A DNA stretch of 64,000 nt from an uncultured Prevotellaceae bacterium (GTDB lineage: Bacteria > Bacteroidota > Bacteroidia > Bacteroidales > Bacteroidaceae): NCBI GenBank assembly GCA_902776665.1, contig CACYQZ010000003.1, positions 1-64,000 on the forward strand. The letters are read 5' to 3'. Of the stretch, positions 24,752 through 26,433 are shown one piece after another (position 1 is the stretch's first letter; every line of letters begins with the position of its first letter). The notes beneath the pieces are model-generated. The model was given only the letters and a program-made list of their open reading frames with translations, had not been told where the DNA came from and searched no databases. Made by a program: the position numbers and the translations under genes.

Positions 24752-25342
24752 ATGATTTACATCAACGACCACCTTTTCGACTTCGACCTCGACGCCGCTC
24801 TCGCCCAACTCTCAGAACAGCGTCGGGAGCAGGCGTTGCGCTATCGCCACGAACTCGGTCGGCGCACCTGTGCAGCGGCCTATTTGCTGCTGTGCGAGGG
24901 GTTGAAGAAGGAATACGGCATCACCGAAAAGCCCATTTTTGAGTATGGCGAACACGGAAAACCGTCGATTGTTGGCCGGCCCGACATCCATTTCAGCCTG
25001 AGCCACTGCCGCGAGGCCGCGATTTGCGTCGTGAGCGACCGTCCTGTCGGGGTCGATGTCGAAACGATTCACCGCTACAGCGAAAGCCTCGTCCGCTACA
25101 CGATGAACGACGAGGAAATCGCCCAAATCCTCGCTTCCGCCCGTCCCGACCTCGCTTTCACCCGCCTCTGGACGCAGAAAGAAGCCCTCGTGAAATGCAC
25201 GGGCGAAGGCATCAACAATGACCTGAAAAATGTTTTGTCGAATTTTTTAAATCACTCCTCGCTCCTCACTCCTCGCTCCCCACTCCTCGAAACTGTCGAA
25301 AGCCCCGATGGTCGCTATGTTTATAGCATTTGCAATGGGTGA
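24752..25342 (+). CDS. 4'-phosphopantetheinyl transferase (Sfp superfamily)
   Basis: The enzyme transfers phosphopantetheine from CoA to a carrier protein serine. The 196-residue protein shows the two family blocks: PVGVDVETIHRY (Mg-binding Asp and Glu) and FTRLWTQKEALVKCTGEGI (W-x-x-K-E-A). FSLSHCREAAICVV precedes the first. No polyketide or non-ribosomal gene lies nearby, so it may serve fatty-acid or flexirubin/aryl-polyene carriers elsewhere. A heptamer array near the 3' end encodes NHSSLLTPRSPLLET. Confidence 0.88.
   Translation: MIYINDHLFDFDLDAALAQLSEQRREQALRYRHELGRRTCAAAYLLLCEGLKKEYGITEKPIFEYGEHGKPSIVGRPDIHFSLSHCREAAICVVSDRPVGVDVETIHRYSESLVRYTMNDEEIAQILASARPDLAFTRLWTQKEALVKCTGEGINNDLKNVLSNFLNHSSLLTPRSPLLETVESPDGRYVYSICNG
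25254..25288. repeat. intragenic heptamer array (ACTCCTC/GCTCCTC x5)
   Basis: Five in-register units (ACTCCTC, GCTCCTC, ACTCCTC, GCTCCCC, ACTCCTC) within the last 90 bases of the Sfp-type gene. Confidence 0.88.
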
Positions 25343-25349
25343 ATCGACG

Positions 25350-26276
25350 TTAAATCAACCGCTTATACCGTAGCAGTGCCCACGACGCACCTGAAACGAC
25401 GAAGGAAATGACGAGGGCGATGGCGAAGCCGAAGCGCGACGTTTCCATTCCGTTCACGAGGTTCATTCCGAAGAGCGAGGCGATGAGCGTGGGGAACATC
25501 ATCACAATCGAGACCGATGTGAGCGTGCGCATCACGGTGTTCATATTGTTGTTGATAATCGAGGAATACGTGTCCATCGTCGATTCGAGGATGTTGGAGT
25601 AGATGGCGGTGGTCTCGCGGGCCTGCGTCATCTCGATGTTCACGTCTTCGATGAGGTCGTCGTCGAGTTCATCGACTTGGAGCTTGAATTTCAGTTTTTG
25701 CAGCAGGTTTTCGTTGCCTCGGATGGAGGTTTGGAAATAGGTCAGCGAGTCTTGCAGGCGCGAGAGTCCGATGAGGCTTTCGTTGTTCACCGAGTGGTCG
25801 AGGTTGTGCTTGGCCTTGTCGATGAGGGTGTTGATTTGCTTGAGTCGCTTCAGGTACCACACCGCCGACGACAGGAAGAGTCGGAAGGTCAGATCGACGT
25901 GGTCGATGAAGCCTGCGCCGCGTTTCTGGTGGAAACTAACGAAGTCGAGCATCATATTCGTCTCGTGGAAGCAGACGGTGATGGTGACGTCGCGCTTGTG
26001 GATGATGCCGAGGGGCACGGTGGTGTAGGGCGTGCGCGAGCGGATTTCCTTGACGTAGGGAATGCGCAGGATGATGAGCATCCAGCCGTCGTCGTACTCG
26101 TAGCGGGCGCGCTCGTCGGTATCGCTGATGTCGTTGATGAAATAGTCGGGAATCTCGAATCGTTCTTCGAGTTCGCGCTGGTCTTCTTCTGTCGGACAGG
26201 TCACCTGAATCCAACAGTTCGGTTCCCACTCTTGCAAGTGAGAGAGTTTGCCGGTTGTGTTCCAGTAAGTCTTCAT
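25350..26276 (-). CDS. corA: CorA-family magnesium transporter
   Basis: The 308-residue protein has the CorA layout: a large N-terminal cytoplasmic domain with long helices, and two C-terminal membrane segments with the GMN selectivity motif (FGMNLVNGME) after the first. It likely imports Mg2+ as a pentamer. Its stop lies seven bases from the convergent Sfp-type gene. The mRNA has a leader of about 140 bases with a 15-codon upstream ORF and two competing hairpins. The sequence AGAGGA, eight bases before the ATG, lies in one hairpin arm, so translation control is expected. Confidence 0.92.
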   Translation of the reverse strand: MKTYWNTTGKLSHLQEWEPNCWIQVTCPTEEDQRELEERFEIPDYFINDISDTDERARYEYDDGWMLIILRIPYVKEIRSRTPYTTVPLGIIHKRDVTITVCFHETNMMLDFVSFHQKRGAGFIDHVDLTFRLFLSSAVWYLKRLKQINTLIDKAKHNLDHSVNNESLIGLSRLQDSLTYFQTSIRGNENLLQKLKFKLQVDELDDDLIEDVNIEMTQARETTAIYSNILESTMDTYSSIINNNMNTVMRTLTSVSIVMMFPTLIASLFGMNLVNGMETSRFGFAIALVISFVVSGASWALLRYKRLI

Positions 26277-26279
26277 TGT

Positions 26280-26350
26280 GCTAATCCTCTTTTTTTAAAT
26301 TGGCAAATGCCCAGAGGATTAGCCTTTTCGGTGTGGCTTTATCCTCGGGC
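26280..26350 (-). promoter_or_regulatory. corA leader with two mutually exclusive hairpins
   Basis: Hairpin A pairs GCCCGAGGATAAAGCC (26350-26335) with GGCTAATCCTCTGGGC (26324-26309), 13 pairs with one bulge and one internal loop. Hairpin B pairs GCTAATCCTCT (26323-26313) with AGAGGATTAGC (26290-26280), 11 perfect pairs. Both use the same central segment, so only one can form. Hairpin B covers the purine-rich stretch just before the corA ATG; hairpin A frees it. Confidence 0.75.
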
Positions 26351-26386
26351 TACAGGTTTATAACTGTCCGCCGGATAATCGTCCAT
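26339..26386 (-). CDS. corA leader peptide (upstream ORF)
   Basis: ATG at 26386 to TAA at 26339 encodes MDDYPADSYKPVARG. Its stop codon and last three codons lie inside the 5' arm of hairpin A. Acidic residues and prolines early in the peptide recall Mg-sensing leaders known from enterobacteria (mgtL, corL), where low Mg2+ destabilises ribosomes on such codons. The ORF is too short to judge by codon use; its placement against the hairpins is the main support. Confidence 0.6.
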   Translation of the reverse strand: MDDYPADSYKPVARG

Positions 26387-26425
26387 AGTTGTTGTTAATT
26401 TAGTGAATAATTGATTTTTGCGCTG

Positions 26426-26433
26426 CAAAGGTA
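26426..26433 (-). promoter_or_regulatory. -7 box for the corA transcript
   Basis: Minus-strand TACCTTTG. It places the start near 26420, upstream of the leader ORF, giving a leader of about 140 bases. Confidence 0.6.

Follow-up and report, generated by a model that had tools for sequence, protein, structure and literature searches.

The window analysed here, a stretch of 64,000 nucleotides from an uncultured Prevotellaceae bacterium, carries on its minus strand a gene whose product is identified as CorA (PF01544, E 2.7e-45), preceded by a leader in which a short upstream open reading frame (uORF) overlaps RNA segments that can pair in alternative ways. The draft genome (2.34 Mb in 52 contigs, 93% complete) holds a single corA match and a single such leader, whose features are, in the order of transcription:

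26433-26426, minus strand: -7-type promoter box TACCTTTG, read from the sequence as a match to TANNTTTG
26386-26339, minus strand: uORF MDDYPADSYKPVARG, 15 codons plus TAA, read from the sequence; its start, MDDY, is conserved
26378-26370, minus strand: segment 1, within the uORF, paired to segment 2 in the fold without a ribosome; weak covariation
26350-26335, minus strand: segment 2, the 5' arm of hairpin A, containing the final uORF codons and stop; fold and 2:3 arm-swap covariation
26324-26309, minus strand: segment 3, the common arm (3' arm of hairpin A, 5' arm of hairpin B); folding
26290-26280, minus strand: segment 4 AGAGGATTAGC, the 3' arm of hairpin B, which covers the ribosome-binding region of corA; fold and 3:4 covariation
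26276-25350, minus strand: corA, 308 codons plus stop, ATG at 26276; sequence and profile match

We call TACCTTTG a promoter on the basis of TANNTTTG, which we take to be the consensus of the Bacteroidota -7 promoter box. Hairpin A (2:3) joins the arms 26350-26335 and 26324-26309, hairpin B (3:4) pairs 26323-26313 with 26290-26280 in 11 perfect pairs 5' of the corA start, and the two are mutually exclusive because the middle arm is common to both. A first-pass annotation of this DNA had described the promoter box, the 15-codon uORF and two hairpins with a common arm, the second of 11 perfect base pairs, and all of these were located where it had placed them. When folded on its own, the stretch 26352-26276 (-23.9 kcal/mol, z -3.81, equalled by 1 of 200 shuffles) has hairpin A formed. 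In the full-length fold of 26428-26240 (-38.7 kcal/mol, z -2.31, equalled by 4 of 200 shuffles), the uORF stretch 26378-26370 is paired to the 5' arm of A and hairpin B is formed, an arrangement that the first-pass annotation had missed. Directly past corA lies a degenerate short GAGGAGTG/GGGAGCGAGGAGTG repeat (25252-25290), which overlaps the 3' end of a converging ORF at 24752-25342.

Conservation of the upstream reading frame

The first-pass annotation had proposed to look in relatives for conservation of the uORF and of its stop position, and for compensatory changes in both stems. The first of these is borne out: among the matches listed, the uORF starts with MDDY in 80/80 named Prevotellaceae corA loci, from a named set of at least 80 loci that spans Prevotella, Hoylesella, Segatella, Xylanibacter, Marseilla, unnamed Prevotellaceae and others. 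The residue that follows, again among the matches listed, is H in 42 of these loci, P in 37 and Y in 1, and the consensus start, as read from the sequences, is M-D-D-Y-[H/P]-x-[E/D]. A fixed stop position, on the other hand, was not found, the uORF being exactly 11 codons long in 49 of the 80 named loci among the matches listed, and 15 in the window. Lengths range from 8 to 30 aa, the second half is without conservation and the frame ends well before corA is reached, all of which speaks against a peptide acting in trans, whose location before corA would merely couple its translation; this reading would suit the conserved peptide start, and we hold it to be scarcely plausible.

A 20-mer taken from the uORF start gave one match each in 131 of 200 same-genus genomes, and its reversed control gave 0. 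As many as 120 of the 131 matches lie 95-203 nt upstream of corA on the same strand; of the other 11, for which the corA place was unlisted, 10 have corA directly downstream and 1 is at a contig edge, such that 130/130 checkable matches sit at corA. Among the 150 corA places listed, 30 belong to genomes without an exact 20-mer match.

At greater distances, a uORF starting with M-[DE]-[DE] was found in 202 of 240 readable corA upstream regions versus 41 of 4800 dinucleotide shuffles, with 89/89 in the genus sample, 72/81 in the family, 34/42 in the order and 7/28 in the class. The 21 class loci without the uORF belong to distant CorAs, 30-39% identical, and we counted them against the attenuator reading set out below. 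Since the samples overlap, the 202 leaders correspond to 199 distinct ones, and L145, a family member, is counted in the order sample. The family sample leaves out 6 of the 98 genomes with a match, which were partial, at the edge of a contig or overlooked, and the class sample leaves out 8 places; in the class, L260 is also without a placeable start. The matches at L160 and L165 (order) and L191 (class) are likely accidental; together with L245, they were kept in the 202 and excluded, on account of their distance from corA or their dissimilarity to the others, from the tests of stem pairing and ribosome position described below. Peptides found at order level include MDDYHPEID, MDDSNPRPYSKSIN, MDEGPYHSRINY and MDEDPVPKQVNIF.

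Codons 2-4 change at third positions only across the 86 distinct genus leaders. The leader had also been described as rich in acidic and proline codons, of which the acidic half holds better: in the sequences compared, positions 2-3 are always acidic, although outside the genus this constancy comes partly by construction, the search itself requiring acidic residues there. Proline is common, not constant, occurring within the first seven residues in 45/86 genus, 36/72 family and 24/37 order/class leaders. As a side observation, the Asp2 codon is GAC in 85/86 genus, 72/72 family and 33/37 order/class leaders, when codon 3 freely mixes GAT and GAC. In 76/86 genus leaders, the uORF has a promoter-type box no more than 60 nt ahead of it, and in 1/86 it is preceded by a Shine-Dalgarno-like (SD-like) stretch. 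GGAGG or AGGAG stands before corA in just 29/86 genus leaders, which was likewise counted against the attenuator reading. Conservation in relatives rules out a chance origin; as judged by comparison of sequences, the leader is real and widely conserved, beyond one species.

Pairing of the RNA segments

The pairing of the leader arms was assessed by an alignment-free arm-swap test, in which the pairing of each leader's own arm is compared with that of arms from other leaders over 5000 permutations, on 161 representatives of 195 leaders (71 genus, 53 family, 37 order/class), a choice that partly removes kinship. For 3:4, z is -9.6 in the genus, -10.2 in the family and -6.3 in order/class, and for 2:3 it is -11.5, -6.6 and -7.4, with 0/5000 permutations reaching any of these values. 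With one arm reversed, the corresponding controls are 0.8, -1.2 and -0.8 for 3:4 and -3.7, -1.9 and -3.7 for 2:3; since the latter stay negative, composition explains part of the 2:3 signal. In the genus, stem B was anchored in 79 of the 86 leaders, of which 45 are distinct; 90% of its cells are paired versus 84% in column shuffles, double changes occur in 8/10 pairs (34 cells versus 11.2 in shuffles) and slid versions of the stem pair in at most 47%. Absence of covariation or of a conserved uORF in relatives would, according to the first-pass annotation, have refuted its proposal; the uORF is conserved and both stems covary, with arm-swap z from -6.3 to -11.5. The 1:2 pairing fares differently: its z of -4.1 in the genus stands against a reversed control of -2.6, it divides into -0.4 for leaders of the H type and -3.1 for those of the P type, and no 1:2 covariation was found by arm swap in the family and order/class samples. 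A firm 1:2 stem was demoted to a weak one.

In several sister genera (L207-L222 and other family loci), the SD before corA is lost and complementary arms of very different sequence are kept. L217 gives an example of pairing without GGAGG, GAATCTTTGC with GCAAAGGTTC, with one G-U.

These observations bear on two other ways of reading the leader. Two alternative structures upstream of a metal transporter would also be expected of a riboswitch directly binding Mg2+ or another ligand, with the uORF incidental, but the coding start of the uORF is the most conserved stretch, and outside it what is conserved, by inspection, is pairing rather than an unpaired core. Nor does the leader match a known Rfam element, Mg2+ riboswitches included, at the gathering threshold; at E up to 10, six matches appear, all far below gathering scores, the best at E 2.1. 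We regard this explanation as very improbable. Somewhat less remote, albeit still distinctly unlikely in our view, is Rho-dependent attenuation of transcription, as in enterobacterial corL and mgtL, in which the hairpins would expose or hide a termination site. In its favor, E. coli corA and its corL uORF act via Rho (PMC11552253). Against transcription attenuation, a scan of the leader strand for terminators of the intrinsic type found none, and 3:4 lies over the ribosome-binding region, its pairing persisting even in leaders that have no Shine-Dalgarno sequence left.

Ribosome position and the proposed switch

The reading that we favor, and consider rather probable, is that corA is under translational attenuation and that the translating ribosome itself does the sensing, corA translation being raised in low Mg2+ and repressed in ample Mg2+. 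Segment 3 has two alternative partners: pairing with segment 4 would occlude the ribosome-binding region of corA and leave the gene shut, and pairing with segment 2 would leave it open. A ribosome on codons 1-8 would block 1:2 and leave segment 2 free to form 2:3, which would open corA. Close to the uORF stop, it would instead cover segment 2, allowing 3:4 to form and shut corA; and with no ribosome at all, 1:2 and 3:4 would both form, and corA would again be shut. By analogy with MgtL and MgtQ, low Mg2+ would slow or destabilize ribosomes on the acidic nascent start and corA translation would rise, when in ample Mg2+ ribosomes would presumably reach the uORF stop and corA would be repressed. 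We infer by the same analogy that starts such as MDDYHAE and MDDYPAD may slow or destabilize Bacteroidota ribosomes at low Mg2+.

To score this logic, equilibrium folding was simulated with the ribosome-covered stretch held single-stranded, and the unpaired fraction of the ribosome-binding site (RBS) region was recorded. In the window, this fraction is predicted at 0.57-0.61 with any of codons 1-8 in the P site, at 0.28-0.30 from codon 9 and at 0.28 without a ribosome. The first-pass annotation had proposed that ribosomes falling off or stalling early would open corA; the early stall agrees with the prediction for codons 1-8, whereas the drop-off does not, the ribosome-free RNA of the window being predicted shut, and for corA to be open a ribosome would therefore have to linger on codons 1-8, its absence not being enough. 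Averaged over the 86 leaders of the genus, the fraction is 0.46 at codon 1 and drops to 0.29 at codon 12 (0.27-0.35 beyond codon 12, with fewer leaders); ribosome-free, it is 0.38. When the early position is compared with the stop and differences above 0.1 are counted, 39 of 71 genus representatives go the predicted way and 1 the opposite way, versus 3 with shuffled spacers; in the family, 7 of 53 agree with the prediction and 3 oppose it (shuffled, 1), and in order/class 10 of 37 agree and 4 oppose it (shuffled, 1). Among 11 order/class leaders that were profiled, a drop is predicted in L162, L166, L169 and L249, the other seven being flat or nearly so. In these simulations, the proposal that an early ribosome opens corA and a ribosome at the stop shuts it thus appears to hold in the genus, but is weak in the family and mixed in order/class.

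In ermC-type attenuators, a ribosome held in the leader frees the RBS through a hairpin swap; the swap proposed here is alike, the macrolide signal, the peptide and the gene being unrelated. The closer likeness is with mgtQ of Salmonella, a short uORF with Asp2 and Glu5 that sets 1:2/3:4 versus 2:3 and so the translation of mgtB, and whose layout and acidic codons were tested in that organism (PMC8092293). In attenuators of the mgtQ type, acidic codons reduce translation of the uORF and increase output of the gene behind it, an effect opposed by L31. Both leaders have an acidic start, the alternative 3:4 versus 2:3, a 3:4 pairing that hides the RBS of the transporter gene, and control that is, or for corA would be, translational; they differ in phylum and in main gene. 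The mgtQ uORF is intergenic within an operon and is preceded by a strong SD (PMC8092293), when the leader described here, with its SD-like stretch in 1/86 genus uORFs, lies 5' of corA and not between mgtC and mgtB. The counterpart of the mgtQ 1:2 stem is also weakly supported here, albeit formed in the fold of the window. We conclude that the corA leader would work like mgtQ, yet is not the same element. As for MgtL, its EPDP motif lets ribosomes drop off in low Mg2+ and thereby switches the RNA, and it shares with the corA leader acidic residues directly after Met and a place before a Mg2+ transporter gene; it acts through Rho-dependent termination (PMC11282234), when the stems of the corA leader point to translation initiation. 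The enterobacterial corL resembles the Bacteroidota leader in its corA target family and in combining a uORF with two exclusive structures, and its translation lowers corA, but it is Rho-dependent (PMC11552253). The published corA RNA motif is reported from Gammaproteobacteria and metagenomes only (PMC6429828), and the transcript map of B. thetaiotaomicron reports sORFs in long 5' UTRs, with corA absent as far as its main text goes (PMC7366714). The first-pass annotation knew of no such leader for a Bacteroidota corA, and none was found in the literature searched, mostly non-subscription journal papers; nor did the matches listed, for two of the queries the best 20 of 32 and the best 15 of 254, yield an account of any Bacteroidota Mg2+ leader.

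Mg2+ as the probable signal, and leaders on other transporters

The main competitor for the nature of the signal keeps the identical RNA switch and makes it respond to general translation stress (EttA-type activity, EF-P, ribosome-targeting drugs or amino-acid supply) instead of Mg2+. It draws on E. coli, in which early acidic residues, those of MgtL included, make translation EttA-dependent (PMC11282234) and in which a uORF senses several drug classes (PMC12121999). We nevertheless consider it unlikely: all of the 130 checkable 20-mer matches are at corA, and similar leaders are found before genes of three unrelated Mg2+ transporter families.

The two further families are those of mgtA and mgtE. 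In the genus, a Mg-type P-ATPase is above the cut-off in 2 of 40 genomes; one of the two genes (L295) has an acidic uORF, MDDKSDSHIKNKPDVMKVD, followed by an 11-bp ATTACCTCCAT/ATGGAGGTAAT stem before the start (L295:463-580), and no such leader was found at the other (L294). Among 8 mgtA loci from 247 genomes of the order, one (L299) has a leader with the uORF MDDGPFSRKNAVTTTHQ and a GCCTCT/AGAGGC stem, six have none, and one (L300) contains an internal stop and has its start unplaced. For mgtE, 48 places were found in 47 of 119 order genomes and the start could be placed in 45, three of which have a leader (L304, L305 and L329), with the uORFs MDDVPGYIKQVY, MEEDPYRSYSREKETMC and MDEGPYSSKN, respectively; in all three, a TCCTTACA arm and an AAGGA-containing arm lie between the uORF and the mgtE start. 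L299, L304, L305 and L329 come from other families of the order. Further matches from the mgtE survey were excluded, L313 and L338 for their resemblance to the ends of coding genes lying upstream, and L310, L326 and L332 because they are without the anatomy. The uORF start of L329 is identical over 18 nt to that of the corA leaders L166 and L164 (E 2e-5 among 195 leaders, reversed query 0 matches); the best corA-leader matches of L295, L299, L304 and L305 are weaker (E at least 0.006). Folding profiles predict an early-open state in L299 (0.50 to 0.38) and a slight one in L295 (0.32 to 0.21); the L304 profile is irregular, and those of L305 and L329 are flat. Acidic leaders are a minority of mgtA and mgtE genes, most loci being without one, and this too was counted against the attenuator reading.

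The presence of similar leaders before some mgtA and mgtE genes strengthens the link of the corA leader with Mg2+, and we read these sequences as one putative control design on three unrelated Mg2+ importers. Most likely, the leader is a translational attenuator of corA that reports the progress of ribosomes over the acidic peptide, and Mg2+ is most likely its signal. Whether there is, more broadly, a Bacteroidota family of ribosome-sensed Mg2+ switches, with one acidic design kept across a large part of the Bacteroidales and, outside that order, in a few other genomes of the class, standing before corA, mgtA or mgtE, with translation initiation as its target and an evolutionary origin separate from that of mgtL, corL and mgtQ, seems to us an even call.

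In common rumen and gut bacteria, CorA is probably the main Mg2+ importer, because MgtE was found in 0 of the 40 same-genus genomes searched, the P-ATPase in only the two mentioned above, and neither in the draft genome of the window (93% complete); the literature searched gave no account of the control of corA in such bacteria. Control of the mgtQ kind is known, and what would be new is a Bacteroidota corA version of it in another phylum. If the proposed reading is true, the sensing of Mg2+ by ribosome stability would be present in a second phylum, about 200 natural variants would reveal which residues and pairs are retained, and the switch would be directly testable in purified translation and with reporters.
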